NCBI RefSeq assembly: GCF_001428895.1
Contig: NZ_LMJA01000002.1
Location: 62,001 to 126,000, forward strand
DNA length: 64,000 nt
Source of the DNA: Mycobacterium sp. Root265
Lineage (GTDB): Bacteria > Actinomycetota > Actinomycetes > Mycobacteriales > Mycobacteriaceae
Direction: 5' to 3'
Shown here: piece by piece, positions 9,090 through 52,427 of the stretch
How positions within the stretch are numbered: position 1 is the first letter of the stretch
Layout of the letters: every line of letters starts with the position of its first letter
Position numbers and translations under genes: made by a program
Notes under the pieces: generated by a model
Told to the model about the DNA's origin: nothing
What the model saw: only the letters and a program-made list of their open reading frames with translations
The model's database searches: none

Positions 9090-10304
9090 ATGAACGCCGG
9101 TATGGATTCGGGCACGCTGATTCGTGATTACCTGCTGCTGGGCTTGCGGTTCGACCGGATCGAGGAGGGCTATGTCGACTCCTTCACCGGTGACCCGGCG
9201 CTGCGCCGCCAGGTCGCCGACGAACCCACCCCGGATCCGGCTGACCTGGCCCGTCAGGCCCAGCGGCTGTGGGCCGAGGTGCCGCGCACCGAGGGCCTCG
9301 ACGAGCAGCGCGCCGGCTACCTGGCCGCGCACCTGAAGGCACTGGCCTGCGCCGGACGCAAGTTCGCCGGCGAGGACGTCGGGTTCGTCGAGGAGGTCCG
9401 CGAGTACTTCGACGTCGACATCGCCAAGGGCGACCCGGATCGCTACCGAGACGCCCACACCAAACTCGACGAGGCGCTCGGCGGCAGCGGTCCGCTGGCG
9501 GGGCGGTTACAGGCGTACCGCGCCGGCGAGGAGATCCCGCCGGACCGCCTCGAGGAGTGCATCCACGCGTTCTCCTCGGCGCTGCGAGACACCGTGCGCG
9601 CCACCTACCCGCTGCCCGAGAGCGAGACGATCACCTACGAGGTCGTCACCGACAAGCCGTGGTCGGGCTTCAACTACTACCTCGGCGACTACAAGTCCAC
9701 CGTCGCGGTCAACGCCGACCTCAAACAGCAGATGTCGAACCTGCCGCGACTGGTCGCCCACGAGTCCTACCCCGGTCACCACACCGAACACTGCCGCAAG
9801 GAGGCCGGGCTGGTGGCCGGTCTGCAGCAGGACGAGCAGACCATCTTCCTGGTCAACACCCCGCAGTGCCTGATGGCCGAGGGACTGGCCGATCTGGCGC
9901 TCTATGCCGTCCAGGGCCCATCATGGGGTGGCTGGGCCGCCGAGATCTATGCCGACCTGGGCCTGCGGTTCGACGGGGACCGCTCGGCCGCCATCTCCGA
10001 GGCCGCCGCGGCGCTGGCCGACGTGCGCCAGGACGCGGCACTGATGCTGCACGACGAGCACCGCGACATCGACGACGTCGCGGCCTACCTGAGCCGATGG
10101 CTGCTGGTCAGCGACGACCGGGCCCGGCAGATGCTGCGCTTCCTGTCCTCGCCGCTGTGGCGCGCCTACACCAGCACCTATGTCGAGGGGTACCGGCTGC
10201 TGCGGGCGTGGATCGACAACCGGCCCGCCGGGGTGTCGCTGACCGAACGGTTCGGCAGGCTGCTCGACGAGCCACTGATCCCGTCCAGCCTGCGGGCGGC
10301 CTGA
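9090..10304 (+). CDS. DUF885-type zinc metallopeptidase-like protein
   Basis: A 404-residue mostly helical protein. A metal-binding H-E-S-Y-P-G-H-H motif lies at about residues 226-233, the DUF885 signature, with a downstream E-G-L-A-D-L motif near residue 265 that would supply the third zinc ligand. This is the layout of gluzincin-like carboxypeptidases. The substrate is unknown, and there is no signal peptide, so it should act in the cytosol. The start is ATG 9090, eight bases after a TAACGT element; a second Met four codons later is possible. The gene diverges from coaA and is followed 50 bases later by glyA in the same direction. Confidence 0.82.
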
Positions 10305-10342
10305 CCGGGTCGGTAGGTTTCGGCGACGGCCACCACGGCGTT

Positions 10343-10348
10343 TAGGCT
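10343..10348 (+). promoter_or_regulatory. -10 element TAGGCT upstream of glyA
   Basis: TAGGCT ends 6 bases before the glyA ATG at 10355, giving a leaderless or near-leaderless start. A GGAGG overlaps the same interval (10349-10353) but is too close to the ATG for good spacing. Inference. Confidence 0.35.
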
Positions 10349-10354
10349 GGAGGC

Positions 10355-11809
10355 ATGACTGCCGACTCGTCGTTGACCGCTCCGGGTGTTGAGTACGCCG
10401 CCACCGCCAGCGAGGCCTACCGGGCCGCGCTGCAGGTGATCGAGTCGGTGGAGCCCCGTATCGCCGCCGCGACCCGCAAAGAGCTTGCCGATCAGCGTGA
10501 TTCGCTCAAGCTGATCGCCAGTGAGAACTATGCGTCGCCGGCCGTGCTGTTGACCATGGGCACCTGGTTCTCCGACAAGTACGCCGAGGGCACCGTCGGG
10601 CACCGTTTCTACGCGGCCTGCCAGAACGTCGACACCGTCGAGGCGCTCGCCGCCGAGCACGCCCGCGAACTGTTCGGCGCCCCGTACGCCTACGCGCAGC
10701 CGCACTCCGGGATCGACGCCAACCTGGTCGCCTACTGGGCCATTCTGGCCACCCGCATCGAAGCCCCGGGGCTCGCGGAACTCGGCGCCAAGCACGTCAA
10801 CGATCTGTCCGAACAGGACTGGGAGAAGCTGCGCGCCAAGCTGGGCAACCAGCGACTGCTCGGCATGTCCCTGGAAACCGGCGGCCACCTCACCCACGGC
10901 TTCCGACCCAACGTGTCCGGCAAGATGTTCCATCAGCGCAGCTACGGCACCGACCCGGAGACCGGCCTGATCGACTACGCCGCCGTCGCCGCCGCGGCCC
11001 GCGAGTTCAAGCCGCTGATCCTGGTGGCCGGTTATTCGGCCTACCCGCGCCGGGTCAACTTCGCCACGATGCGCGAGATCGCCGACGAGGTCGGCGCCAC
11101 CCTGCTGGTCGACATGGCCCACTTCGCCGGCCTGGTGGCCGGCAAGGTGTTCACCGGTGACGAGGATCCGGTGCCGCACGCGCACGTCACCACCACCACC
11201 ACGCACAAGTCGCTGCGCGGACCGCGTGGCGGCCTGGTGCTGGCCACCGAGGAGTACGCGCCCGCCGTCGACAAGGGCTGCCCGATGGTGCTCGGCGGAC
11301 CGCTCTCGCATGTGATGGCGGCCAAGGCCGTGGCGCTGGCGGAGGCCCGCCAGCCGGCGTTCCGCGAGTACGCGCAGGCTGTGGCCGACAATGCCAAGGC
11401 GCTGGCCGACGGCTTCCTCAAGCGGGGCGCACGACTGGTCACCGGCGGCACCGACAACCACCTGGTGCTGCTGGACGTCACCTCGTTCGGGCTGACCGGC
11501 CGGCAAGCCGAGTCGGCGCTCCTGGACGCCGGCGTCGTCACCAACCGCAACTCCATCCCGGCCGACCCGAACGGTGCCTGGTACACCAGCGGCATCCGGT
11601 TCGGCACCCCGGCGCTGACCACCCGCGGCTTCGGCGCCGCCGAGTTCGACCGGGTGGCCGAACTCGTCGTCGAGGTGCTCAAGAACACCGAGCCTCAGGG
11701 GACTTCCAAGGCCAAGTACACGCTCGTGGACTCCACCGCGGACTGGGTGAAGTCCGCGTCGGCGGAGATCCTGGCGGCCAACCCGCTGTACCCGGGACTC
11801 ACTCTCTAA
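10355..11809 (+). CDS. glyA: Serine hydroxymethyltransferase GlyA, long form
   Basis: A 484-residue PLP enzyme that interconverts serine and glycine with tetrahydrofolate, the main source of one-carbon units. The PLP-binding motif T-T-T-T-H-K places the Schiff-base lysine at Lys285. Other family signatures are S-E-N-Y-A-S near residue 51, G-T-V-G-H-R-F-Y near residue 77 and a [10 protein letters not shown] strand. It occupies the slot of M. tuberculosis glyA1 (Rv1093, about 426 residues) but is nearly 60 residues longer, with an extended N-terminus and an insertion at about residues 132-165 (rich in E, L, K). It therefore belongs to a longer subfamily, such as I recall from some other actinomycetes, rather than being a simple glyA1 orthologue. 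Confidence 0.94.
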
Positions 11810-39588: not shown

Positions 39589-40662
39589 GTGAGCTTGAAC
39601 CTCGGAATCGTCGGTCTCCCCAATGTCGGCAAGTCGACCCTTTTCAACGCGTTGACACGGAACGACGTGCTGGCGGCGAACTATCCGTTCGCGACCATCG
39701 AGCCCAATGAGGGCGTGGTGGCGTTACCGGACCCCCGGCTGGACAAACTCGCCGAGATCTTCGGTTCGGAGAAGACCGTGCCGGCGCCGGTGACGTTCGT
39801 CGACATCGCGGGCATCGTGAAGGGCGCGTCCGAGGGTGCCGGGCTGGGCAACAAGTTCCTGGCCAACATCCGCGAGTGCGACGCGATCTGTCAGGTGGTG
39901 CGGGCGTTCGCCGATGACGATGTGGTGCACGTCGACGGCCGGGTGGACCCGCGTTCGGATATCGAGGTCATCGAGACCGAGCTGATCCTGGCCGATATGC
40001 AGACGCTGGAGAAGGCCGTGCCGCGACTGGAGAAGGAAGCGCGCACCAACAAGGACCGCAAGGCCGTGCTGGAGGCGGCGGTGGCGGCGCAGGCGGTGCT
40101 CGATACCGGCAAGACACTCTTCTCGGCCGGGGCGGACGTGTCGCTGCTCCGTGAGCTGAACCTGATGACCACCAAGCCGTTCCTCTACGTGTTCAACGCC
40201 GACGAGTCGGTGCTCACCGACGAGGCCAAGCAGGCCGAGCTGCGTGCGCTGGTGGCCCCGGCGGATGCGGTGTTCCTGGACGCCAAGATCGAGTCGGAAC
40301 TGATCGAGCTCGACGACGAGTCCGCGGCCGAACTGCTGGAGTCGATCGGGCAGACCGAACGTGGCCTGGATGCGTTGGCGCGGGCCGGTTTTCACACTCT
40401 GAACCTGCAGACCTATCTCACCGCCGGGCCGAAAGAGTCCCGCGCGTGGACGATTCACCGCGGCGACACCGCCCCGAAGGCGGCCGGTGTGATCCATACC
40501 GACTTCGAGAAGGGCTTCATCAAGGCCGAGATCGTGTCATTCGCCGACCTGGTCGAGGCCGGCTCGATGGCCGCGGCCAAGGCAGCGGGCAAGGTCCGGA
40601 TGGAAGGCAAGGACTACGTGATGGCCGACGGAGACGTCGTCGAGTTCCGCTTCAACGTGTAA
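39589..40662 (+). CDS. ychF: Redox-regulated ATPase/GTPase YchF (OLA1 family); target of the integrative element
   Basis: A 357-residue Obg-like P-loop NTPase. G1 is G-L-P-N-V-G-K-S-T (residues 8-16), switch motifs N-Y-P-F-A-T-I-E-P-N and D-I-A-G follow, and the C-terminal TGS domain ends D-V-V-E-F-R-F-N-V. It binds ribosomes and hydrolyses ATP, and is involved in stress responses. It corresponds to Rv1112. The start is GTG 39589. The last codons (40642-40659) are a re-created end: the same E-F-R-F-N-V-stop with synonymous codons occurs 7 kb further on at 47687, so an integrative element has replaced the host 3' end without changing the protein. Confidence 0.96.
   Translation: MSLNLGIVGLPNVGKSTLFNALTRNDVLAANYPFATIEPNEGVVALPDPRLDKLAEIFGSEKTVPAPVTFVDIAGIVKGASEGAGLGNKFLANIRECDAICQVVRAFADDDVVHVDGRVDPRSDIEVIETELILADMQTLEKAVPRLEKEARTNKDRKAVLEAAVAAQAVLDTGKTLFSAGADVSLLRELNLMTTKPFLYVFNADESVLTDEAKQAELRALVAPADAVFLDAKIESELIELDDESAAELLESIGQTERGLDALARAGFHTLNLQTYLTAGPKESRAWTIHRGDTAPKAAGVIHTDFEKGFIKAEIVSFADLVEAGSMAAAKAAGKVRMEGKDYVMADGDVVEFRFNV
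40642..40658 (+). other. attL core within the last ychF codons
   Basis: GAGTTCCGCTTCAACGT here aligns with GAGTTCCGTTTCAATGT at 47687-47703 with two mismatches, both at third codon positions. The longest exact shared block is GAGTTCCG (8 bases), the probable crossover segment. Left of it is host ychF; right of it is element DNA. Confidence 0.7.
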
Positions 40663-40670
40663 ACGCCCAG
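40660..40670 (+). repeat. 11-bp direct repeat, left copy (TAAACGCCCAG)
   Basis: Begins with the re-created ychF stop codon. An identical copy lies at 47672-47682. In the circular form the two would flank the recombination core at short distance as direct repeats, suggesting integrase or excisionase binding. Confidence 0.6.
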
Positions 40671-40682
40671 TTCAGCAGGCAT

Positions 40683-41849
40683 TTATTGACTGTCCGTCCG
40701 CAGTTCGTCCGCAGCAGAGCTAAGCGCCGCCTGGAACAACCCTCCAGCAGCGTTCCGCGTCCGGTCGTTGGCGTTAGGCCACAGGTGTGCGTAGGTGTTT
40801 AGCGTGACACTCGGCGACGAGTGCCCAAGCGCCCGCTGAACCGTCACCACATCGCAGTTCTCGTTGATCAGTCCCGAGGCGTAGAAGTGCCTCAACTGGT
40901 GAAGCAGATAATCGACGCCGACTGCGTTCCGAGTCTTGCGCCACAGGTAACCAACTGAGTTCTGATGGAGCGGGTGTGTGCCCTCGCCGGGGAACATCCA
41001 TTGGTCTGGGCTGTTGTCGGGCAGGTGCAAGCGGATGTGTTCGCTCAGGATGTGCAGAAGCTCGTCAGGCGCGTAGACGGTGCGCACCGATTCGTATTTG
41101 GGCGGTCTAATCTCTACGGCACCTCCGTTGGCTCTCTGGACCTGGCGTTCGATACGAATCTCCTTGGCGAGGAACTTGATGTCCCCAACGCGGAGCGCGG
41201 CCGCTTCGCCTAATCGCATGCCTGCGAACCCGCAGAGGGCGACGAAGGCGGTGAAGTGGTCGTCCGCGTTCTCAAGGAGTTTCCCGACCTCGGCGGGTGT
41301 CGGAATCGCCATCGCTTCGGCAGCTTTCGGACGCCTCGGCAATGTGACTTTGGCGGTGATGTCGTGGGCAAGGAAGCGGTCTCCGATAGCCGCCCGAATG
41401 ACTGCGCGGACGTTGTTGAAGCGCGTCTTGATGGTGGACGCCTCTAAGGGCTTGTCCCTCATCCACTTAACCCACGCCTCGACGTGGGAAGGCTTCAAAT
41501 CTGCGAACGCGATGTCGCCGAAGCTTGCCGAGTTCACAGCAAGGTTCATCGCTTTGAGCGTGCCAGACTCCCACGTCTGCAACTTCGACCATTCCTGGTA
41601 GTAGCTGTTGAAGGTCACCTTCCCCAGTCGGGGGTCGATGTAATTGCCGGTCTCTTGCGCGGCCACAACGCCGTTGAGCCATTGCGTGGCTGAGACCTTG
41701 GTGCGGAAGCCCTTTGCATGCTCTCGACCCTCGTCATCCACGTATCTGGCACGCCAGCGAAGCCCCCGGCCATCGGCTGCTGACGGTGACCCGTCAGAGC
41801 AACGCCAGCGGTCTTCTACACCGCTACGCCGATTACGCCTCTGCGTCAT
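40683..41849 (-). CDS. Tyrosine recombinase/integrase of the element
   Basis: A 388-residue phage-type integrase. An N-terminal basic arm-binding region (residues 1-60, with R-A-R-Y-V-D-D-E-G-R-E), a core-binding SAM-like domain (about 65-175) and the catalytic domain follow. Catalytic residues are the Arg in G-M-R-L-G-E, His317 and Arg320 in H-Q-L-R-H, His343 in L-G-H-S, and the nucleophile Tyr353 in N-T-Y-A-H-L-W. All are present, so it should be active. The start is taken as ATG 41849, overlapping the upstream regulator gene by 17 bases. The gene ends 20 bases from the ychF stop, and its last codons contain the arm-type repeats, as is usual for integrases next to their att site. Confidence 0.94.
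   Translation of the reverse strand: MTQRRNRRSGVEDRWRCSDGSPSAADGRGLRWRARYVDDEGREHAKGFRTKVSATQWLNGVVAAQETGNYIDPRLGKVTFNSYYQEWSKLQTWESGTLKAMNLAVNSASFGDIAFADLKPSHVEAWVKWMRDKPLEASTIKTRFNNVRAVIRAAIGDRFLAHDITAKVTLPRRPKAAEAMAIPTPAEVGKLLENADDHFTAFVALCGFAGMRLGEAAALRVGDIKFLAKEIRIERQVQRANGGAVEIRPPKYESVRTVYAPDELLHILSEHIRLHLPDNSPDQWMFPGEGTHPLHQNSVGYLWRKTRNAVGVDYLLHQLRHFYASGLINENCDVVTVQRALGHSSPSVTLNTYAHLWPNANDRTRNAAGGLFQAALSSAADELRTDSQ
40696..40714. repeat. Arm-type repeats, left end (GTCCGCAG x2, 11-bp spacing)
   Basis: Two direct copies of GTCCGCAG at 40696 and 40707, inside the 3' end of the integrase gene. The same pair with the same 11-base spacing and orientation occurs at 47568-47587. Their presence on both sides of the att core is the pattern of integrase arm sites. 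Confidence 0.65.
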
Positions 41850-42417
41850 GTTGGCCGCCCTCGTTGGCTGTTCCGTGCCCGTTCTGGCGCTTCTCGGCAT
41901 CCAGCGCAGTTTGGTTAAGGATGCGTGCAAGCGCGAGGACGTGCGCCTCCTGCTCCACATATCGACCTGCACTGCGGGACATGTCCGCCTTCATGTCATT
42001 GAGCAGAACCTGTGCCGCAGCGATCATGTCGTTCAGTTGGTTGATCGGCGACCGAGCATCCGTCTGCGGCGATCCCACGAATACGGCAAGGGGCGGCACT
42101 CGAAAAATCGTCGCGATGGCTGCTGCCTCTGCGACCCGCAGTGGCCGGGTGCCGCGTTCGATCTTGGCGACAGACGTCTGATGAAGGTCGATGCCCTCCG
42201 AGCGAAGTTTGTCGGCCAGGTCTTCTTGCGACCAGTTGCGCTCTCGCCGCCAGTGTCGAACGTTGTCGCCAAAGCTCTTCTCCCAGTCCTCATGGACTTG
42301 ACGGCGCTGTGCAGGATTCGCAGCGGACGCTTCGCTACGTTCGGACGTGAGCTGCCGCTGCAACTTTTCGGCCAACGCCTGCTGTTCGTGCATGTCTGGT
42401 GTTCCGTCGTCGTCCAT
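41833..42417 (-). CDS. XRE-family repressor-like regulator of the element
   Basis: A protein of 194 residues from ATG 42417 (an earlier ATG at 42459 lies inside a palindrome and is less likely). An HTH_XRE domain is at about residues 50-110: F-G-D-N-V-R-H-W-R-R-E-R-N-W-S-Q-E-D-L-A-D-K-L then Q-T-S-V-A-K-I-E-R-G. The C-terminal half is helical. It sits upstream of and overlaps the integrase gene, so both are expressed together, and faces the excisionase-like gene across a perfect inverted repeat. This is the layout of a lysogeny-type switch in which the XRE protein would repress excision. The N-terminal 45 residues are Gln/Ala/Ser-rich. Confidence 0.85.
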   Translation of the reverse strand: MDDDGTPDMHEQQALAEKLQRQLTSERSEASAANPAQRRQVHEDWEKSFGDNVRHWRRERNWSQEDLADKLRSEGIDLHQTSVAKIERGTRPLRVAEAAAIATIFRVPPLAVFVGSPQTDARSPINQLNDMIAAAQVLLNDMKADMSRSAGRYVEQEAHVLALARILNQTALDAEKRQNGHGTANEGGQHDAEA

Positions 42418-42449
42418 GATGGCCAATCTATGGCACAGGAGCTTAGTTA

Positions 42450-42468
42450 TCAAGCTCATGGAGCTTGA
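42450..42468. promoter_or_regulatory. Candidate repressor operator TCAAGCTC-ATG-GAGCTTGA
   Basis: A perfect 8-bp inverted repeat with 3-base centre in the divergent spacer between the XRE regulator and excisionase-like genes. Related half-sites GCTTGA (42494-42499) and ACTTGA (42524-42529) follow nearby. It is the natural binding site for the XRE protein. Confidence 0.55.
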
Positions 42469-42528
42469 CAAGCGCCGTACTGTCCTTCTCGATGCTTGAA
42501 AGCCAAGCGTTTGGAGGTTAAAAACTTG

Positions 42529-42771
42529 ATGACGACAACCGCTATCCCGGTCAGGGAACTGATGACCACCAAGGACGTCGAGAACGAGTACGGCATCCCA
42601 GAAGGCACCCTTCGCTATTACCGCAGCACTGGCATCGGCCCAGCTTCTTTTCGTCTCGGCGGTCGGGTCAGATACCGCCGGGCCGACGTTCTGATCTGGG
42701 TTGCAGAGCAGGAGCGGACCACCCGTCGCGGTGGGACCGAATCTCAGCAGTCCTCAGTAGATGCCAGGTGA
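42529..42771 (+). CDS. Excisionase-like MerR/AlpA-type HTH protein
   Basis: An 80-residue protein with a winged HTH of the excisionase/HTH_17 type: L-M-T-T-K-D-V-E-N-E-Y-G-I-P-E-G-T-L-R-Y-Y-R followed by the wing F-R-L-G-G-R-V-R-Y-R-R-A-D-V-L-I-W. Such proteins bend att DNA and direct integrases to excise. The start is ATG 42529, with GGAGG 11 bases upstream; TTG 42526 has better spacing. The stop overlaps the next start (GTGA). Confidence 0.82.
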   Translation: MTTTAIPVRELMTTKDVENEYGIPEGTLRYYRSTGIGPASFRLGGRVRYRRADVLIWVAEQERTTRRGGTESQQSSVDAR

Positions 42772-43118
42772 GCGTCCAGAACCCTTGGTCTGCTCACTAC
42801 CAAAAGGTATGGATGGAACGTGCCAGTGATCCGGCTCTGCCCCTGTGGCTCCGTGTTGCGGCGTTGGCGTTCGGCAGGCATCGCTTGAACGGGCACGCCA
42901 ACTTCGCAATGGGCGAGTTGGGCAAGCTCCTAGGCAAACCGGGACCGGACGGGAAGCCGAAGCCGATTTCCAACTCTGCTGTCGCGAACGCAATCAGCAA
43001 GGCCAAGAAACACGGCTTCATCGCTGAGGATTCGATGGCGCGTTGCCTGGTCGTGCCTCGGCATGCGGTCACGTTGGGGGTCGGCGGCAGCGTTCATACC
43101 AAGTGCTGCCTCCACTAG
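42768..43118 (+). CDS. Small winged-helix-like protein of actinobacterial mobile elements
   Basis: A 116-residue protein overlapping the excisionase-like gene by four bases. The core has W-L-R-V-A-A-L-A-F-G-R-H, a loop with A-M-G-E-L-G-K-L-L and a helix S-N-S-A-V-A-N-A-I-S-K-A-K-K-H-G-F, as in a winged helix. The end R-C-L-V-V-P-R-H-A-V then H-T-K-C-C-L-H is a Cys/His-containing tail I recognise from orphan proteins of actinobacterial integrated elements and plasmids. It may take part in replication or regulation, but this is not known. Confidence 0.7.
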   Translation: MSVQNPWSAHYQKVWMERASDPALPLWLRVAALAFGRHRLNGHANFAMGELGKLLGKPGPDGKPKPISNSAVANAISKAKKHGFIAEDSMARCLVVPRHAVTLGVGGSVHTKCCLH

Positions 43119-43491
43119 AAGTTCACGCGGAGGATGAACACACTTCACGATTGACGTGAATTGAAACCGCCTCTGAGCTGCGGTTACTTCGCCGCTCTTT
43201 ATGACTATCTATCAACGTCATGTCAACCCCAAATTGGGAACAATGGAAGCGCCACTATTTTCTAGAAACGTGTCCCGGTCCCGAAACCATCGACAAGCGG
43301 TCCATTTCCATACACCGTTCGTGATGCCACCCACCCCCTCGGGGCCGCGCTCAGTTGTCACTAGTTGTTGCTTTACCGGCTCTGACCTCTCGGGGACTAC
43401 GTGAGGGTGCGGCTAAGCCACAAGAGTAGGTGCCTGCTGCTAAGAGTCGGGTGCGTTCGCAGTGACCGACCCCAAAGGCCGCACGCCGCAG
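43119..43491. other. Non-coding stretch of the element, 373 bases
   Basis: No gene can be supported here. Base composition is lower in GC than the flanks. A small dyad TTCACG-attga-CGTGAA lies at 43145-43161 and could be a terminator or binding site. A 67-codon open frame (43201-43404) has no ribosome binding site and an implausible composition. The stretch may hold a replication or regulatory region of the element. Confidence 0.5.
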
Positions 43492-44151
43492 TTAAAACGT
43501 TTGTAACGCTTGGCTTCCCAGATGGACCAACTCGGCTGCACCGTCGTGTGCGAGGGTCGTCATCCCAATTCCTAACGCGGATAGAAGCAACTTTTTTACC
43601 TTGCCGGTGTCAGGAACAGGCTCGGCAGCTTCGGCCTTGATGTCGGCGGCGATCTGCTGCGCCTGCGCAATCTCGTCTGGCCCACCGCATGAAGCTTTCG
43701 CTAACAGATCGGCGACGGCAGTGGCCTTCTGCATCTGCTCGGAAAGGCTGTAGACCTGCGTAGCCCCAGGACTTCCAATCGCCACGTTCGTGCTGTTGCT
43801 TACGTGGATGGTCGTTACACCTTGGGGGTCGGCAGGCTCCTGACCGCCAGGGCGAACGGACACCTTGCGGTCGGCCAAGGTCTCACCCAGGGCCGTAATC
43901 GCTGGGCGTATGACGCCGTGTCCCCAGGAACCAGAGCCGCTTATGTATCCCTCTTCTTTTAGCCAATCCGACGCTGCCGCGACCTCCGGTTCGGTCAACG
44001 GCGCGCCTTGCCAATCGACCGTGGCCGCGATGTCCTCTGGTTTCAGCACCGGACGCCGACTGCCATGCACCATCGCCTTGATGTAAAGCCAGGCCAAGAT
44101 GGCGTCACGGATGCTCCACACCCGGTCAATCGCGACACTGGGATCGGTCAT
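43492..44151 (-). CDS. Unknown protein: winged helix plus N-V-A-I-G-S repeat-like segment
   Basis: A 219-residue protein from ATG 44151, with GGGAAGG seven bases upstream. Residues 10-90 look like a winged HTH (I-R-D-A-I-L-A-W-L-Y, then E-P-E-V-A-A-A-S-D-W-L-K-E-E-G-Y-I-S-G). A short strand segment, T-I-H-V-S-N-S-T-N-V-A-I-G-S-P-G-A-T-Q, follows at about 115-133. The last 80 residues are helical with a modestly hydrophobic stretch near the end. Segments of this N-V-x-x-G type occur in several orphan and defence-associated bacterial proteins, but I cannot assign a family. It has its own promoter region and is oriented against its neighbours. Confidence 0.7.
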   Translation of the reverse strand: MTDPSVAIDRVWSIRDAILAWLYIKAMVHGSRRPVLKPEDIAATVDWQGAPLTEPEVAAASDWLKEEGYISGSGSWGHGVIRPAITALGETLADRKVSVRPGGQEPADPQGVTTIHVSNSTNVAIGSPGATQVYSLSEQMQKATAVADLLAKASCGGPDEIAQAQQIAADIKAEAAEPVPDTGKVKKLLLSALGIGMTTLAHDGAAELVHLGSQALQTF

Positions 44152-44402
44152 CACGTTGCCTTCCCGCAGATGGACCCTTAAAGACACGGCATTGCGTTGA
44201 TTGTCGTTGCGAAGGTTGCCTACATCCAATCTGGCACGCCGGGGTGAACGCTGCCATTCCGACGTCGCTCTGGCACCTCAAGCCTTATTCGCCATTTGGA
44301 ACGCCGTTCTCAGAACTAAAGATTTGCAACAGCCTCAACGAGATAGTCTGTGGCCTGATCAGTGCCAGATCGTGGCGTCTCAAAAGATGGTTCAAAAGTT
44401 CT

Positions 44403-44447
44403 GTCGCATATTGACGAGTTGTGAGACTTATGCGACGATGGTCGCAT
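44403..44447. promoter_or_regulatory. Recombinase binding-site-like dyads upstream of the serine recombinase
   Basis: GTCGCATA (44403-44410) and its exact complement TATGCGAC (44429-44436) are 26 bases centre to centre, and a third GTCGCAT (44441-44447) forms a second dyad with TGCGAC around GATG. The last one overlaps the recombinase start codon. The spacing fits a resolvase-type subsite and autoregulation. Confidence 0.5.
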
Positions 44448-45042
44448 GGTCATCGACACCGCGCCCGCCGTCACCGGAACCCAGCTCGGCTACGCCCGCG
44501 TCAGCACGGCGCACCAGTCGCTCGACCAACAGGTGGATGCGCTGACCGCAGCAGGCGTTGATGCCACCCGCGTCTACACCGACAAGCTTTCCGGCACGTC
44601 GACGCGGCAGCAGCGTCCCGGCCTCGCCGCGCTTGTGGATTACGCACGGCAGGGCGACGCCATCGTCGTTGTTGGCATCGACCGTCTGGGCCGCAATGCG
44701 GCAGAGGTGATGCAGACCATCCGGGACCTTGGCGTGCGGGGAATCGTGCTGCGGTCGCTACGCGAGGGCATCGACACCTCGAACGCTTCGGGGCGGATGG
44801 TTGCCGGGGTCCTCGCCAGTCTCGCCGAGCTTGAGCTGGAACTGGGTAAGGAACGGCGCACGGCATCGCGGGACGCACGGCGGGCACGCGGGCAGTCCAT
44901 CGGTCGCCCCAAGTCGCTGGACGAGTCGAAGGTGGCCCTGGCCCAGCGGATGCATACCAGCGGTGAGGCGGCCAGCACGATTGCTGCCACCTTTGGCGTC
45001 AGCAGGGCGACGGTGTACCGCGCCCTCGCGGCACAGAGTTAG
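44446..45042 (+). CDS. Serine recombinase (resolvase/invertase family)
   Basis: A 198-residue small serine recombinase. The catalytic Ser is in Y-A-R-V-S-T near residue 18, with further active-site motifs D-R-L-G-R-N near residue 83 and G-I-D-T-S-N-A-S-G-R-M near residue 110. The C-terminal DNA-binding HTH has I-G-R-P-K-S and G-V-S-R-A-T-V-Y-R-A-L. The length is normal for Tn3-type resolvases. There is no transposase beside it, so it may be a remnant of a transposon or serve to resolve element multimers. The start is ATG 44446, inside a dyad-rich region. It converges with the TetR gene. Confidence 0.92.
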   Translation: MVIDTAPAVTGTQLGYARVSTAHQSLDQQVDALTAAGVDATRVYTDKLSGTSTRQQRPGLAALVDYARQGDAIVVVGIDRLGRNAAEVMQTIRDLGVRGIVLRSLREGIDTSNASGRMVAGVLASLAELELELGKERRTASRDARRARGQSIGRPKSLDESKVALAQRMHTSGEAASTIAATFGVSRATVYRALAAQS

Positions 45043-45077
45043 CAGGTTCTCGGGCTGACCCGGCGCTAGAGCAGTTC

Positions 45078-45632
45078 TTAGCGTAATCCCAGTGTCACCG
45101 ATGGCGCGGCGAACCGTTTCACGAGTTCGTACTCGGTCTGGTTGTCTTTGGCAGGCCAGTACCACAGCGAGAAGGTGACGCGAATGAGCCACTGCGCGGC
45201 TAGTGGGTCGCTGCGCCCGATCATCTCTTCGGCAATCTTGGCCACGAGCGGTGATGCGGTGACGATTCCGCCGTCGTGGTCTGGGCGAATGTCGCCCATG
45301 ATCAATTTTCCGAGCGGTTCGGCTCGCATGCAGTCAAGTGCGACGACGATGGCAGTCGCGACGCGCTCAGTTCCCTCAGTCCCGACGATCGCCTGGCGTA
45401 CTGAGCGAATGATTCGTTCGGAGAACAAGGAAATGAGACGTTCGAGGATCGCGGCTTTGCCGCCTGCACGGCGATAGATGGTAGCGGGCGAGCAATTCAA
45501 CTGCGCAGCCAGCGCGTCGATGGTCAACGCCTCGAACCCATCGCGTGAGACAAGCTCCGAAGCCCCCGACAGAATCCGATCAAGCGCCACCGCGCTACGG
45601 TCCACTCCAAGGACCCAATCCTTCCGTGCCAC
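45078..45632 (-). CDS. TetR-family regulator of the element-borne P450
   Basis: A 184-residue TetR protein, the same length as the chromosomal regulator at 23.8 kb and of the same subfamily: both start with D-W and G-x-D-R, share I-D-x-L-A-A and A-T-V/I-Y-R, and end with a W-P motif in the last third (here L-W-Y-W-P-A-K-D-N). The HTH is at about residues 16-62. The start is GTG 45632, nine bases after GGAAGG; an ATG three codons earlier abuts the same sequence and would leave no spacing. It diverges from the P450 gene, so repression of that gene is the obvious role. Confidence 0.9.
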   Translation of the reverse strand: MARKDWVLGVDRSAVALDRILSGASELVSRDGFEALTIDALAAQLNCSPATIYRRAGGKAAILERLISLFSERIIRSVRQAIVGTEGTERVATAIVVALDCMRAEPLGKLIMGDIRPDHDGGIVTASPLVAKIAEEMIGRSDPLAAQWLIRVTFSLWYWPAKDNQTEYELVKRFAAPSVTLGLR

Positions 45633-45678
45633 ATTTGTCATCCTTCCGGTTGCAGCGGTGATAGAACAACAAATCCGT

Positions 45679-45693
45679 TCTCTCACCGAGAGA
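45679..45693. promoter_or_regulatory. Candidate TetR operator TCTCTC-ACC-GAGAGA
   Basis: A perfect 6-bp inverted repeat with 3-base centre in the spacer between the divergent TetR and P450 genes. It resembles the TCTCA-AGC-TGAGA dyad of the chromosomal pair at 23792. Inference. Confidence 0.4.
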
Positions 45694-45740
45694 CATTTCG
45701 AGGCTGATGTCTCACCCGTATGCGCAGTTGAGGGCTGTCC

Positions 45741-47171
45741 GTGAGCGCAGGAGATCTCGTCAGTTCTGTGCTGGCATTTCATCTTCGTAGCGAAGCATTG
45801 ACCGCTTGGGCGGCCCGCACCCACTGTGAGATAGATGCTCTAGGGAAAGGTGCGTTTACTTTGAAGCTTGGAAAGGCTGCTGACGGTGCCACAGCGATGT
45901 TGTCGCCGCTGGTTGCAGCGACGCGATTGAATGTCTCGGCGGCGATTCGTACACATAAGCGTGGATACGAGGGATGGACGGGTGCGGTCAACACCGACTA
46001 CGACCCGTTAGATCCGACCGTCGCAGCGCAACCGCACGCTGCGTACGACGCCCTGCACCGGGGTGGACGTGTCCACTACAACCCCCGCCGCTCAACGTGG
46101 ATTCTTCACAGGCTCGACGATGTCCGCGCTGCGCTACGCGACACAGACCAGGTGACCAGCAGCCGGGGAGTGACCCGAGTACAGATGGTCGCAGATCTCG
46201 TTGTTGTTACCGACGACGAGCAGCACAGCCGCCTCCGCAAACAAGTACAGCCAGCGTTCACCAAAGGTGCACTGGACACCTGGCGCAACATCATCGACAA
46301 GCTTGCTGCCGAACTCGTCGGTGACATGATCGCAGCGAGCGGCGGTGACGCGGTGCAACAGTTGACGGTCCCCTTGCCGCTGCGGGTGATCGCCGCGATC
46401 ATCGGCGTCCCCGATGGCGACATCGCCGATTTCCGTCGCTGGTCAGATGAGTGCACGCAGTTAATCAACTTCACCCCAACGGTGAAAGGTGTTGTGCACT
46501 CGGCACGATCCATGTGGGCTGCAATGGCGCTGCGCCGCTATTTCTTGAAGCACCTCGGAGATGGGCACCTCAAAGACTCAAATACCGTTCTTGGCCGTTT
46601 GCTGGCGCACAGCACCGACGGTGCCCTAACCGACAATCAGTTGTTCTACATTGCCATCCTGCTGCTGATCGCCGGCAATGAGACCACCACCAACCTCCTG
46701 GGCGGAATGCTTCACACCTACGCCCACCACCCCGACCAATATGACATGATCCGCGCCAACCCCGACCTCATACCGCAGGCCATCGAAGAACATCTCCGCT
46801 ACAGCAGCCCCATCCAAAACCTCTACCGCTACACCCGCGCCGATTATCGGGTTGGAGACGTGACCATCCCAACAGGCTCGCGTGTGATGATGTCGTTCGG
46901 AGCGGCCAACCGCGATCCACTGGCCTTCGACGACCCTAACACCTTCCGCGCCAACCGAAACCCGCGTACCCACGTCGCCTTCGGCTACGGTCCGCACCTA
47001 TGCCTGGGAGCACCCCTGGCACGCATGGAGGCACAAGCCGTGCTCCGAGAACTGGTGGACCGCGTCGCGCGAATCTCCATGACCGGCCCCACCGCATGGT
47101 CCACCAACAGCTCGCTGCGCGGCCCCACTCACCTACCCCTCGTTCTCGACGGGTCTGCCCGTGACAGCTAG
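45741..47171 (+). CDS. Cytochrome P450 carried by the element, with N-terminal extension
   Basis: A 476-residue P450. The I-helix A-G-N-E-T-T-T is near residue 313, E-E-H-L-R-Y (E-x-x-R) near residue 350, and the heme loop F-G-Y-G-P-H-L-C-L-G gives Cys421 as ligand. Homology to bacterial P450s begins only at D-P-L-D-P near residue 90, so the gene as read from GTG 45741 has an extension of about 85 residues that contains a hydrophobic-amphipathic stretch and basic patches. A later ATG at 45897 would give a shorter protein. No ferredoxin or reductase is encoded in the element. It is followed by a small membrane protein gene with 11-base overlap. Confidence 0.92.
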   Translation: MSAGDLVSSVLAFHLRSEALTAWAARTHCEIDALGKGAFTLKLGKAADGATAMLSPLVAATRLNVSAAIRTHKRGYEGWTGAVNTDYDPLDPTVAAQPHAAYDALHRGGRVHYNPRRSTWILHRLDDVRAALRDTDQVTSSRGVTRVQMVADLVVVTDDEQHSRLRKQVQPAFTKGALDTWRNIIDKLAAELVGDMIAASGGDAVQQLTVPLPLRVIAAIIGVPDGDIADFRRWSDECTQLINFTPTVKGVVHSARSMWAAMALRRYFLKHLGDGHLKDSNTVLGRLLAHSTDGALTDNQLFYIAILLLIAGNETTTNLLGGMLHTYAHHPDQYDMIRANPDLIPQAIEEHLRYSSPIQNLYRYTRADYRVGDVTIPTGSRVMMSFGAANRDPLAFDDPNTFRANRNPRTHVAFGYGPHLCLGAPLARMEAQAVLRELVDRVARISMTGPTAWSTNSSLRGPTHLPLVLDGSARDS

Positions 47172-47451
47172 GCGTACACGGTCCGAACGATGGTCATTGG
47201 CCGGAGGATTTGCGCTCGTGGGGTCGGGACTCGCGCACCTACTGCTCCCAAGAGCGTTCGAACCGGTGAATCGAACGGCGTTCAAGGACAACATCCGTGC
47301 TCACGTTCTGATCAACGGCAGCATCGAAGCAGGACTGGGTCTTGCGCTGCTTGATTCTCGTACTCGTCGAATCGCCTTGGCGGCCACCGCTGTCTATCTG
47401 ACCTATTTCAACGCCAGCGTTTTGTATCGGCAGCGCGTCCTGCGTAACTGA
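47161..47451 (+). CDS. Small three-helix membrane protein, cargo of the element
   Basis: A 96-residue protein starting at GTG 47161 inside the P450 3' end, so translationally coupled to it. Three hydrophobic segments are visible: G-G-F-A-L-V-G-S-G-L-A-H-L-L-L, I-N-G-S-I-E-A-G-L-G-L-A-L-L and I-A-L-A-A-T-A-V-Y-L-T-Y-F. The pattern is reminiscent of DoxX-like proteins, but no residue proves it. Coupling suggests a role with the P450, for instance as membrane partner. Confidence 0.7.
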   Translation: MTARRTRSERWSLAGGFALVGSGLAHLLLPRAFEPVNRTAFKDNIRAHVLINGSIEAGLGLALLDSRTRRIALAATAVYLTYFNASVLYRQRVLRN

Positions 47452-47482
47452 ACACGCCACAGGTCAGCAACATTCGAGCGGG

Positions 47483-47499
47483 GTGGGGGGTGGCCCCAC
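47483..47499. terminator. Weak hairpin after the element's last gene
   Basis: GTGGGG (47483-47488) and CCCCAC (47494-47499) form a 6-bp stem with a G-rich 5-base loop, 31 bases after the stop of the small membrane protein gene. It could terminate the P450 transcript. The stem is short. Confidence 0.3.
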
Positions 47500-47567
47500 T
47501 GAGGGCACTGCCATGCCTCGCACGGCCAGCGCCCGCTCTCTCTCCGGCCATACCGGCGAGAGTCCGA

Positions 47568-47587
47568 GTCCGCAGTCCGTCCGCAGT
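47568..47587. repeat. Arm-type repeats, right end (GTCCGCAGT x2, 11-bp spacing)
   Basis: Exact direct repeats at 47568-47576 and 47579-47587, the same unit, orientation and spacing as at 40696-40714. They lie about 100 bases inside the right att core. Confidence 0.7.
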
Positions 47588-47671
47588 AGCCTCATTCACG
47601 GTAAACAACAGCCAACGTCGCCAACGTTCTGACCTGCCAAGACTTAACGAAGCCAACGCCATCAACTGCGA

Positions 47672-47682
47672 TAAACGCCCAG
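47672..47682 (+). repeat. 11-bp direct repeat, right copy (TAAACGCCCAG)
   Basis: Identical to 40660-40670. It lies four bases before the displaced ychF codons, on the element side of the right junction. Confidence 0.6.
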
Positions 47683-47686
47683 CATG

Positions 47687-47707
47687 GAGTTCCGTTTCAA
47701 TGTCTGA
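47687..47707 (+). pseudogene. ychF: Displaced 3' end of the host ychF gene (attR)
   Basis: GAG TTC CGT TTC AAT GTC TGA encodes E-F-R-F-N-V-stop, exactly the last residues of YchF, in a place where no gene ends. All three codon differences from the functional copy are synonymous and the stop differs (TGA against TAA). It is best read as the original host end, pushed away by integration of the element. Confidence 0.8.
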
Positions 47708-49113: not shown

Positions 49114-49220
49114 AGCTCAAACTACGCCGATCTACCCGTTTTTGGCGTGCGTCGAGACGGCCGTCGTGAGTCCGACGGAAGAGCGTCGCGGTGCAGCTCC
49201 TCGTCACCGCGTAGTCCGAA

Positions 49221-49632
49221 CTAGTTGATGATCTCGCCCCGGCCCTCGGCCTCGATTGCGGCCAGTCGGTCCTGCCACATCTGGGAGAGCTTCGGGGGTG
49301 AGTCGCGTCCAATCGGTGATCTCGGCGACGATCCGGAGCGGATGCCTGCTGCGATAGGACCGGGTGGGATTGCCGGGGAATTTCTTGTCGGTGACGTTGG
49401 GATCGTTCTCGAATTCGCCGGTCGGTTCCACGGCGTACACGCGCGGGATGCCGTCGCCGGGCGCGAGTTCGGCGGCCAGTCCTGCGCCGTCGCGCAACGC
49501 GGTGAAGTAGATGTGGTTCATCACGATCTCTGGCCGGTAGTTGGAGCGGAAACCGGCGGTGAGGTGATCACCCACGCGCAGTTGGGCCTTGGTGCCGTGG
49601 AAGAAAGGTCCGTCATCCAATGCCCCGTCCAT
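49221..49632 (-). pseudogene. arr: Rifampin ADP-ribosyltransferase Arr, frameshifted near its 3' end
   Basis: The first 115 residues fit Arr closely: G-P-F-F-H-G-T-K-A then S-N-Y-R-P-E-I-V-M-N-H-I-Y-F-T-A, then V-E-P-T-G-x-F-E-N-D-P-N-V-T-D-K-K-F-P-G-N-P-T. Arr inactivates rifamycins by ADP-ribosylating the C23 hydroxyl with NAD+. After L-T-P the frame is lost: as read it continues into an unrelated tail ending at 49204. Removing one base from the run of five G (plus strand 49294-49298) restores a continuous end with L-S-Q-M-W-Q-D-R-L and R-G-E-I-I-N-stop at 49221. The core catalytic part is intact, so activity is uncertain, and a homopolymer sequencing error is possible. Confidence 0.8.
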
Positions 49633-51189: not shown

Positions 51190-51838
51190 CAGCGGCGCCG
51201 CCCGAGCAGCCCGCCCGCGGTCTGCAAATCGGTCACCAGATCGGCGAACGCGGCGTCACGCCGGTCGGCCGGCCCACGCAACACTGATGATGGGTGCGGG
51301 GTGGCCACGACATCGAATTCGTCTTCCGGTGGGTGCAACACCTCACCGCGATGAGCGGTAAGTCGAAAGTCGTTACCCAACAATGCTTTTGCGGCAGTGG
51401 CTCCGAGGAGTACCACGACGTCGGGATCGATGACGCCGAGTTCGGCGAACAGCCACGGACGGCAGGCGACGACCTCCGTGCGGCTGGGCGTCTTGTGGAT
51501 CCGGCGCTTGTTCCCGGCGCGCGGGTGAACTTGAAGTGTTTGACGGCGTTGGTCACGTAGACCTGTTCGCGGTCGATGCCCGCTTCGACCAGTGCCTTAT
51601 TCAGCAGGCGGCCGGCGGGTCCGACGAACGGCTCGCCCGCGCGGTCCTCCTGATCGCCTGGCTGCTCGCCCACCAAGACGAGTCGCGCGGACGAGGGGCC
51701 GGCACCGAACACCGTCTGATCGGCGTCGCGGTACAACTCGCATCCGCGGCATCCCCGTGCCGCGTCGGCCAGCGTGCCGAGGTCGCGGGTCGGCGGTATG
51801 AAGTCCTGCGCTCCTGGGTGCACCACTGAGACGGCCAT
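51189..51838 (-). pseudogene. udgX: UdgX-type uracil-DNA glycosylase, disrupted by a 2-base insertion
   Basis: From ATG 51838 the frame reads as a family-4-like UDG: C-R-G-C-E-L-Y (iron-sulfur cysteines), then G-E-Q-P-G-D-Q-E-D, the UdgX motif, then V-T-N-A-V-K-H-F-K-F-T-R. After T-R-A the frame is lost. In another frame the sequence continues with K-R-R-I-H-K-T-P, the UdgX-specific loop whose His attacks uracil-DNA covalently, and on to P-H-P-S-S-V-L and a TGA at 51189. The gene is 650 bases, two more than a multiple of three; removing one GC from the GCGCGC run at 51517-51522 gives a continuous protein of 215 residues. UdgX excises uracil and stays bound covalently. As written, the catalytic part is not translated. 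Confidence 0.82.
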
Positions 51839-51899
51839 ACGAACGGATACCCGTCTTCGGGCGGTGCATTCCTGGTGCGCCCGAATTCTGGAGCTACCG

Positions 51900-52427
51900 T
51901 TGGCACCTGTGATCTTGTGGCTCAACGGCACGCACGGTGTGGGTAAGACGACGACCAGTCGGCTCGTGCAGCCGCTGGTGCCGAATTCACGTGTTTTCGA
52001 CGCCGAGATGGTCGGCGAAATGCTGATGAACCTCGTGCCTGGCCTGCCCGAGACGGACAACTTCCAGCATTGGCCACCGTGGCGTCCGCTCGTGGTGGAG
52101 ACAGCCCGCCGCGTCCTCGAGTACACCGGCGGAACGCTGGTGATACCGATGACTGTCCTCATCGAGGCGTACTGGATTGAGATCAGCACCGGCCTCGCGC
52201 AGTACGAGATCCCGCTGCGGCACTTCGTGCTTCACGCTGACCCTGACACCCTGCGCGCGCGTATCGAAGGCGACACCGTGATGGGTCCATCACCGTTCCG
52301 GATGGACCACCTGCAGCCCTATGCGGAAGCGGCTCGCATCTGGCTGCACGACGTGGCCGAGGTGGTCGACACCACGCACCGCACGCCCGACGAGGTCGCC
52401 CAGCAGATCGCGAGCGCGGCCCGTTGA
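51900..52427 (+). CDS. P-loop NTPase/kinase-like protein (TmrB-like)
   Basis: A 175-residue protein with Walker A N-G-T-H-G-V-G-K-T-T-T at about residues 8-18 in the first strand, the pattern of TmrB/AAA-type small P-loop proteins. A later H-A-D-P-D-T-L-R-A-R-I segment is the lid with Arg. Members include ATP-binding tunicamycin-resistance proteins and small kinases; the substrate here is unknown. The start is TTG 51900, with GGAG six bases upstream; GTG 51909 is an alternative. It diverges from the broken udgX gene. Confidence 0.8.
   Translation: MAPVILWLNGTHGVGKTTTSRLVQPLVPNSRVFDAEMVGEMLMNLVPGLPETDNFQHWPPWRPLVVETARRVLEYTGGTLVIPMTVLIEAYWIEISTGLAQYEIPLRHFVLHADPDTLRARIEGDTVMGPSPFRMDHLQPYAEAARIWLHDVAEVVDTTHRTPDEVAQQIASAAR

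Follow-up and report, generated by a model that had tools for sequence, protein, structure and literature searches.

What does a second, orphaned copy of the last codons of ychF, standing 7 kb downstream of the gene itself, say about how the intervening DNA arrived? The question arose in a stretch of 64,000 nt from Mycobacterium sp. Root265 (NZ_LMJA01000002.1, positions 62,001-126,000 of the forward strand; hereafter the window). Here ychF, encoding the YchF GTPase/ATPase (39589-40662, + strand; Pfam YchF-GTPase_C and MMR_HSR1), is followed by a convergent tyrosine integrase gene and, further on, by the second copy. We conclude that positions 40642-47707 are very probably a 7.0-kb non-conjugative tyrosine-integrase element that attaches at the 3' end of ychF. 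The site, its boundaries, the gene content, the recurrence of the family at the same site and its patchy distribution are shown at the level of sequence; the direction of the past event, the roles of the arm sites and excisionase, the continued mobility of the element and its way between cells are what we infer.

A doubled ychF 3' end beside a tyrosine integrase

The window ychF ends GAG TTC CGC TTC AAC GTG TAA (EFRFNV-stop, 40642-40662) and the stop codon of the integrase gene (40683) lies 20 bp past this end. A second EFRFNV end, GAG TTC CGT TTC AAT GTC TGA, is located at 47687-47707 without any remaining ychF, 7,045 bp from the first. The pattern GARTTYMGNTTYAAYGTNTRR had exactly two matches in the window versus 0.00 expected from 100 dinucleotide shuffles, and a narrower pattern for the ychF end (TAG stop excluded) had exactly two matches in the whole 6.67-Mb genome. 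The block 12 codons upstream of the end was present there as a single copy. The only unbroken identity between the two window ends is GAGTTCCG (8 nt), the other differences being mostly at third positions. A sequence-only reading of this DNA had reported the EFRFNV-TAA end beside the convergent integrase, the lone EFRFNV-TGA end with its synonymous codons, and third-position differences outside a shared core, and all three observations held. No tRNA gene was detected in the window by ARAGORN, nor in ten related loci, and a tRNA was rejected as the target.

The integrase (40683-41849, − strand; 388 aa from ATG) matched Pfam Phage_integrase (3.1e-22) and the PHROG 1 integrase family. Its reading frame is free of stops and the R/HxxR/Y motif, characteristic of tyrosine integrases, is visible by eye. 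The locus thereby combines a catalytic domain, repeats at the left and right attachment sites (attL and attR) that include the host gene end, and arm-like repeats at both ends. The latter consist of two copies of TCCGCAG, 11 bp apart, at the left (40697 and 40708; 40697-40714, + strand) and again at the right (47569 and 47580; 47569-47586, + strand), out of 15 occurrences in the whole window on both strands, the four end copies included. The left pair also occurred at the left ends of the elements at L134, L143 (= L224), L144 and L218-L221. Both copies of the right pair were found in L134 and L143, and one of the two was altered in L144 and L221. These pairs are putative arm-type sites of the integrase.

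The position of the crossover was narrowed by comparing attL with attR in six elements: that of the window and those of G285, G307, G391, G264 and M. llatzerense. The identical blocks measured 8 nt in the window and 14, 20, 21, 21 and 21 nt in the others, respectively. The stretch common to all six is TTCCG, which would contain the crossover provided that no later mutation intervened, although only the window and G285 narrow it this far. Under the proposed mechanism, the integrase would act on two copies of GAGTTCCGSTTCAACGT, one carried by the circular element and the other lying within the last six codons of ychF, with strand exchange in or around TTCCG (40645-40649 in attL, GAGTTCCGCTTCAACGTGTAA, 40642-40662, + strand). 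Codons brought by the element would then complete ychF (EFRFNV-TAA), and the original EFRFNV-TGA would be displaced to the far end, where attR carries it (GAGTTCCGTTTCAATGTCTGA, 47687-47707, + strand) behind an element-side half (ATAAACGCCCAGCATG, 47671-47686, + strand). The empty site would read ...GAGTTCCGTTTCAATGTCTGA and the circle junction AAACGCCCAGCATGGAGTTCCGCTTCAACGTGTAA.

Of the remaining genes between the two ends, the XRE regulator, the excisionase-like gene and the resolvase on the left recur in related elements, and the three on the right look like cargo. On the left, an XRE-type repressor-like regulator (41833-42417, − strand; Pfam HTH_3/HTH_31) shared 53-57% identity with proteins of the ychF-located elements L218-L221. 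It is followed by an excisionase-like helix-turn-helix protein (42532-42771, + strand; Pfam HTH_17, PHROG 66 'excisionase'; 71-76% identity in M. vaccae and M. komossense), two open reading frames (ORFs) without a family in Pfam or PHROGs (a small one at 42768-43118, + strand, and another at 43492-44229, − strand) and a small serine resolvase of 198 aa (44446-45042, + strand; Pfam Resolvase and HTH_7) with 81-87% identity in the M. vaccae, M. komossense and M. llatzerense elements. On the right lie a TetR regulator (45078-45824, − strand; Pfam TetR_N), a cytochrome P450 (45741-47171, + strand; Pfam p450) and a small ORF (47161-47451, + strand) with no family in Pfam or PHROGs. None of these three had a match in the available DNA of nine related loci. 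Amongst the eight non-integrase ORFs, no virion gene and no conjugation or FtsK-type transfer gene scored above the cut-off (Pfam for all, PHROGs for five); the excisionase-like protein gave one weak PHROG match to a terminase small subunit (E 0.0056). Given that no transfer or virion genes were recognised, the element is probably mobilised between cells in trans.

Relatives of the element and competing explanations

A pattern scan of 84,980 genomes, one per species, returned nine relatives of the integrase. All five with at least 82% identity were located at the ychF 3' end and convergent with ychF: M. vaccae (89%), M. komossense (89%), a metagenome-assembled genome (MAG; 83%), M. llatzerense (82%) and Mycolicibacterium sp. 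CR10 (G391; 96%, a fragment only). Of the four relatives whose identity did not exceed 58% (Prescottella equi, Tsukamurella spumae and two others), none was at ychF in the stretches examined, and no ychF end was found within ~1.5 kb of six Mycobacterium integrase loci at 54-60%. With relatives at 82% or more sitting at ychF and none of those at 52-60% seen there, ychF specificity seems to be a property confined to one integrase clade. The sequence-only reading had proposed looking for similar elements at ychF in other genomes, and this search was thus answered in its favour by five of nine relatives.

M. llatzerense harboured a complete 6.0-kb sister element with attL, attR and similarly built left and right ends. 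Across the related ychF-located elements, the XRE regulator was found in four, the resolvase in three and the excisionase-like gene in two. Decayed members, recognised by similar ends or integrase pieces at ychF, occurred in G391, G264 and G307 and, less clearly, in G485, G497 and G506. A hidden Markov model (HMM) built from 27 related integrases and run over the ychF loci matched the intact window gene and fragments in L143, L147, L151, L152 and L158; the G285 fragment escaped the model and was seen otherwise. The model also gave a weak match (E 0.00097) to a complete Phage_integrase gene in L127 (9283-10512, genome G455). This tyrosine recombinase, with Phage_integrase and SAM-like domains, is far from the window's kind; ~3.7 kb separate it from the final copy that scores well in the ychF array there.

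The distribution of the family carries a horizontal signal. Over 420 bp, the integrase remnant of CR10 and the window shared 96.2% identity, compared to 84.5% for the ychF genes, and the species nearest by ychF (G417 and G334, 94%; G357, 92%) had no such element at ychF. The other four relatives displayed no such contrast (integrase DNA 82-87%, ychF 82-86%). The tyrosine-class element of M. vaccae is separated from ychF by a cassette of 741 bp whose right end is of the serine class (L218, ~10217-10958), which suggests that the restored ychF end was used again.

Several observations weigh against integration at ychF as described. The window attL and attR share just 8 nt. The right boundary was not found for M. 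vaccae, M. komossense or the MAG in the stretches examined, and of the five related elements in which it was seen, four are decayed. The element of G285 has as its left neighbour the displaced ychF end of a serine-class element and not ychF itself, which the stretch examined does not reach. Homologues of the XRE regulator, excisionase and resolvase also occurred together in L225, away from ychF and with an integrase only 32% identical, so this gene set is not diagnostic. The native ychF ends of element-free relatives were also split. We compared the eight species nearest by ychF, setting aside G485 as possibly carrying a remnant of its own. G280, G428 and G471 end TTC-AAT-GTC-TGA-CG, letter for letter as in the displaced right-hand copy, which G334 also resembles with its GTC-TGA; G417 and G357 end GTG-TAG and G514 GTG-TAA, like the left-hand copy. 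The expectation that relatives lacking the element should carry the right-hand codons was therefore upheld in four species and contradicted in three, all of them relatives at the species level and none conspecific, a favourable but mixed outcome. The broader claim, that the element supplies its own last codons and displaces those of the host, stood.

Three other explanations were weighed. The element might have recombined at TAAACGCCCAG, a perfect 11-bp repeat at 40660-40670 and 47672-47682 that went unnoticed in the sequence-only reading, the second EFRFNV being flanking chromosome and the empty site carrying two tandem ychF ends. Identical at both positions, this repeat is longer than GAGTTCCG. 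Its left-end letters, however, differ in the relatives (ATGCCCTG in L143, AGTTGCTG in L134, AGGTGCAG in L144), and it is the right end that mostly keeps its sequence, AAACGCCCAGC recurring in L134, L143 and L221 and being altered in L144, L151 and L153. In all six elements it is instead the ychF-end block, 8-21 nt identical and always including TTCCG, that stands at both ends. With its left side unconserved amongst related elements, TAAACGCCCAG was rejected as the core and we consider this arrangement very unlikely. That the second block is a decayed ychF duplicate or a chance match, with the integrase an unrelated neighbour, would fit the shortness of the shared block and its synonymous differences, and longer ychF duplications do exist elsewhere (G246, G638). 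Yet shuffled sequence yielded no such pair, the upstream block is single in this genome and doubled in only one of 298 genomes of the genus versus 49 for the end, and relatives of the integrase recur at ychF; this explanation strikes us as vanishingly improbable.

Entry by a serine recombinase, with the tyrosine integrase as a passenger, would fit the conservation of the serine resolvase in related elements and the use of this gene end by large serine recombinases (described below). Against this, the resolvase is only 198 aa long and has no match to the Recombinase domain (PF07508), the genome has no relative of the ychF-linked large recombinase at E 1e-60 or better, and the right end of the window element lacks the GGTSG and the CGG-type half of the serine class. 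The tyrosine integrase, moreover, tracks the site. We give this route very little credence, and integration by the tyrosine integrase at the ychF 3' end is retained.

Serine recombinases and small cassettes at the same gene end

Frequencies were taken from genome-wide scans only, the array loci having been chosen mainly for at least two matches. ychF was found in 296 of the 298 genus genomes. With TAG stops allowed, the end pattern matched in 255/298, and 49/298 had two or more copies (one of them, G329, with its second copy on another contig), up to five in G455. The reversed control pattern had no matches in the 298 genomes. The control block 12 codons upstream was present in 275/298 and occurred twice in one only, G246 (C30:123759 and 129445, a spacing of 5.7 kb that may reflect a more extensive duplication of ychF). 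By this difference (49/298 versus 1/298), what has been multiplied in the genus is the 3' end. At least 12 further genomes (G255, G291, G303, G324, G384, G425, G435, G443, G454, G464, G495 and G507) had a single canonical end, and it lies 0.5-17 kb away from ychF. Of 246 genomes drawn from the class, 20 had two or more copies (those of G721 on different contigs), of which 15 were outside the family and represented nine families. Reading covered ten multi-copy loci from this draw, of which nine belong to other families. One of these nine, L235 of G638, had ends at 1174 and 7271, a distance of 6.1 kb, whose similarity spans ~70 bp and takes in upstream codons; as the homology of the second copy continues upstream for at least another 40 bp, it represents a longer duplication than at other sites.

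Large elements with a serine recombinase at their right end were found at ychF in G281 (10.2 kb), G291 (10.6 kb) and G443 (15.3 kb), and some of their ORFs are phage-like by reading. The recombinases of G281 and G443 have Resolvase and Recombinase domains; that of G291 is broken into pieces, and this element also has a tyrosine-integrase ORF. Homologues at E 1e-60 or better occurred in 34/298 genomes. All 11 homologues with at least 54% identity lay beside a displaced ychF end scoring 22/30 or better, ten of them overlapping it or within 70 bp and one, L192, at 0.8 kb. None of the 19 fetched homologues at 45% or less had a displaced ychF end. Judging by these positions, this large serine recombinase family (seen at L146, L147, L148, L188-L197 and L208) is tied to the ychF 3' end. 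The serine-class pattern for the phage attachment site (attP) had no matches in viral_contigs, and phage records held only relatives below 60% identity of both recombinases. The corynephages 304L and phi16, whose integrases are distant, were rejected as ychF users, the two attP records lacking a ychF end.

Serine-class insertions alter the YchF tail: EFRFNV becomes EFR[FH]G, in most cases extended by a few new residues. Altered tails were seen at L129, L146-L150, L177, L055 and L062. That of G298 (GAGTTCCGCTTCGGAACAACGTC) has exactly five bases more than the intact ychF (GAGTTCCGCTTCAACGTC), and in large serine recombinases attP and bacterial (attB) half-sites are told apart by an outer motif shifted by five bases. 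G255, G298 and G516 contain short intervals with a serine-class left end and no recombinase gene, and for this reason they look like products of a serine recombinase moved in trans. Most intervals, by comparison, have an intact ychF end on the left, many of these with a serine-class half on the right. We infer that the recombinase joins such ends and moves small cassettes. Of the dyad symmetry that an SCC-like system would show in attR but not in attB or attL, the inner arm was present in 18/83 displaced versus 0/53 genuine ends (6/83 and 8/53 with shuffled left sides); the outer arm, in 27/83 displaced versus 18/53 genuine ends (5 and 5 shuffled), did not separate them, so the split by dyad is partial overall.

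These 53 genuine and 83 displaced ends (22/30 or better; some of the latter possibly chance or misplaced matches, and that at 1150 in L174 overlapping a genuine end) came from 63 scored loci, namely 60 fetched mostly for multiple copies together with L034, L035 and the window. Between successive ends lay 79 intervals of 102-15,332 bp, most of which (55) measured 400-1,500 bp, the identical cassettes of L170 and L175 both being counted. Arrays of two to five ends were seen in L126 (G147), L127 (G455), L128 (G205), L130, L131, L137, L141, L157 and others. The intervals, mostly 0.4-1.5 kb, usually hold one main ORF; toxin-antitoxin cassettes hold two or three ORFs each. Orientation was examined in 55 intervals of 250-1,600 bp (median 776), after L146-L148 (prophage loci), L175 (a duplicate) and the window had been set aside. 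The main ORF was co-directional with ychF in 46/55 and opposed in 9/55 (binomial, P = 2e-7), compared to 123 with, 133 against and 19 without an ORF in control intervals. Its stop codon fell within 70 nt of the right-hand end in 33/46, versus 26/123 in the control intervals.

Of 118 cassette ORFs, 52 proteins were picked by hand for a family scan, which returned 60 families in all. Amongst those listed, this included methyltransferases (5), PIN (4), glyoxalase (4), AAA_33 (4), GNAT (2), SnoaL (2), Phd/YefM (2) and Abi_2 (1). PADLOC assigned mad2 to five of the 52, which are probably methyltransferase cross-hits, and AbiD, mad1, VakA, PDC-M69A and two RT-Protease_XI models once each.

The same cassette occupies different array positions in different genomes. 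An HNH-like cassette leads the array in G373, G459 and G423 and takes second place in G368; the names HNH-like and HigB-like come from reading the sequence, no family test having named HNH-like. The HNH-like gene (L131:1327-1950; also L130 and L172) runs into the attachment site and takes its C-terminus from the ychF end (DGDVVEFRFNV in L131). A HigB-like toxin-antitoxin cassette crossed the bounds of genera and families, being shared by G205, G013 and G041 of one family (f1) and G680 of another (f20) (loci L241, L128, L034 and L035). It aligns from the first base, and over the initial 613 bp G680 agrees with the other three at 86-89% identity, compared to 75-76% for ychF in the two measurable pairs, which argues for passage between families. 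Against this stand the results within the genus: of 19 pairs sharing a cassette, nine were more alike than their ychF genes and ten less, and much of this sharing may therefore be old.

Two further features of the window touch on these arrays. An Arr-type rifampin ADP-ribosyltransferase gene (arr, 49204-49632; Pfam Arr-ms) lies 1.5 kb past the element, with a possible decayed ychF end at its 3' end (49185-49214, 22/30), a score too weak for any claim as 46 places reach 19/30 in the other 51.5 kb. The last array copy in G465 (L141) also adjoins arr. As both the window remnant and the L141 copy abut it, arr was perhaps the original neighbour of ychF. A kinase-like gene (51774-52427; WLNGTHGVGKTTT) is ~75% identical in DNA to a ychF-adjacent cassette of G516 (L177).

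The tyrosine element, the large serine recombinases and the small cassettes independently use the same end, which makes ychF an insertion hotspot of a general kind, served by two or more classes of recombinase; this was out of reach of the sequence-only reading. Such a hotspot, with its cassette stacks, is a more surprising result than the window element. On balance, we lean towards reading it as a class-wide platform for cassette capture in Actinomycetes. A ychF-specific, phage-type serine recombinase would stack cassettes (toxin-antitoxin, methyltransferase, glyoxalase-fold, acetyltransferase and similar) in trans and head to tail, resembling staphylococcal cassette chromosomes (SCC) in manner and integrons in economy. 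Tyrosine-integrase elements would arrive separately and restore the ychF end for further insertion, as seen in M. vaccae.

Relation to known integration systems

If the platform reading is true, extra EFRFNV ends would provide an annotation-free marker for mobile cassettes, the ychF 3' end a new integration site for genetic tools, and the arrays a direct test of whether large serine recombinases stack cassettes outside Firmicutes. The rewriting of the YchF C-terminus by the serine class (EFR[FH]G...) also raises the question of whether that end matters to the protein.

The sequence-only reading knew of no description of a ychF site, and our literature searches, largely outside subscription papers, are consistent with this: no printed description of a ychF 3'-end attachment site or of a ychF cassette hotspot was found, and the site of the window element is apparently undescribed. 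Likewise, amongst the matches listed, no title or abstract concerned integron-like or serine-recombinase cassette arrays in actinobacteria. For mycobacterial prophages, ychF is absent from the main text of PMC10654092, PMC8092301 and PMC9262239 as far as available, and a 2023 mycobacterial prophage paper gives M. abscessus six serine sites as well as seven tyrosine sites that lie outside tRNA/tmRNA genes. The available portions of PMC3218068 and PMC12884075 do not mention ychF, those of PMC13046425, PMC11171008 and PMC11669507 use or list it as an ordinary gene, and that of PMC8460829 places YchF amongst the genes of a group of S. aureus prophage regions.

The pneumococcal prophages resemble the window element in their ychF neighbourhood; their attB, however, is an unrelated intergenic site upstream of the ychF start according to the accessible text of PMC8637289 and PMC10383233, and PMC6375853 also concerns pneumococcal prophage and ychF. 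Tyrosine-integrase islands in protein genes (dusA, GIsul2), as far as their descriptions were available, share the integrase beside a gene end and the direct repeats. The dusA islands, however, use the 5' end, whereas the window element uses the 3' end of ychF, is small and has no recognised transfer or virion genes. The M. abscessus prophage site attB-8, at the 3' end of MAB_2979, is alike in its tyrosine crossover within the last codons of a protein; there a full prophage replaces seven residues by eight, compared to a six-residue end restored by a 7-kb element here, and MAB_2979 is not called ychF in the available text (PMC8092301).

The closest match for the ychF arrays, although not for the window element, is SCC and the Enterococcus cassette chromosome (ECC) at the rlmH 3' end. 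As presented in the accessible part of PMC6222049, these share a housekeeping 3' end, large serine recombinases and several attR copies with the arrays, and ECC has inverted repeats in attR and the circle form. The ychF arrays differ in using ychF and not rlmH, in belonging to Actinomycetes and in their phage-type recombinase (ccrAB was not looked for), and in the make-up of their cassettes, which mostly measure 0.4-1.5 kb and contain a single main ORF but no recombinase. Two SCC-like features are nevertheless clear in the ychF arrays, namely tandem copies at a housekeeping 3' end and a site-specific large serine recombinase.

Integron gene cassettes are compact, mostly uniform in orientation, carry toxin-antitoxin and small enzyme genes, and are gathered at one anchor site. 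The ychF arrays share these features but differ in that their site is the end of a protein gene and that, apart from the window's own, no intact tyrosine integrase of the modelled family stands beside them (no IntI model was used). The common view places most integrons in Proteobacteria and assigns SCC to Firmicutes; if the platform reading is correct, Actinomycetes would own a gene-capture site of their own, at a conserved housekeeping gene.

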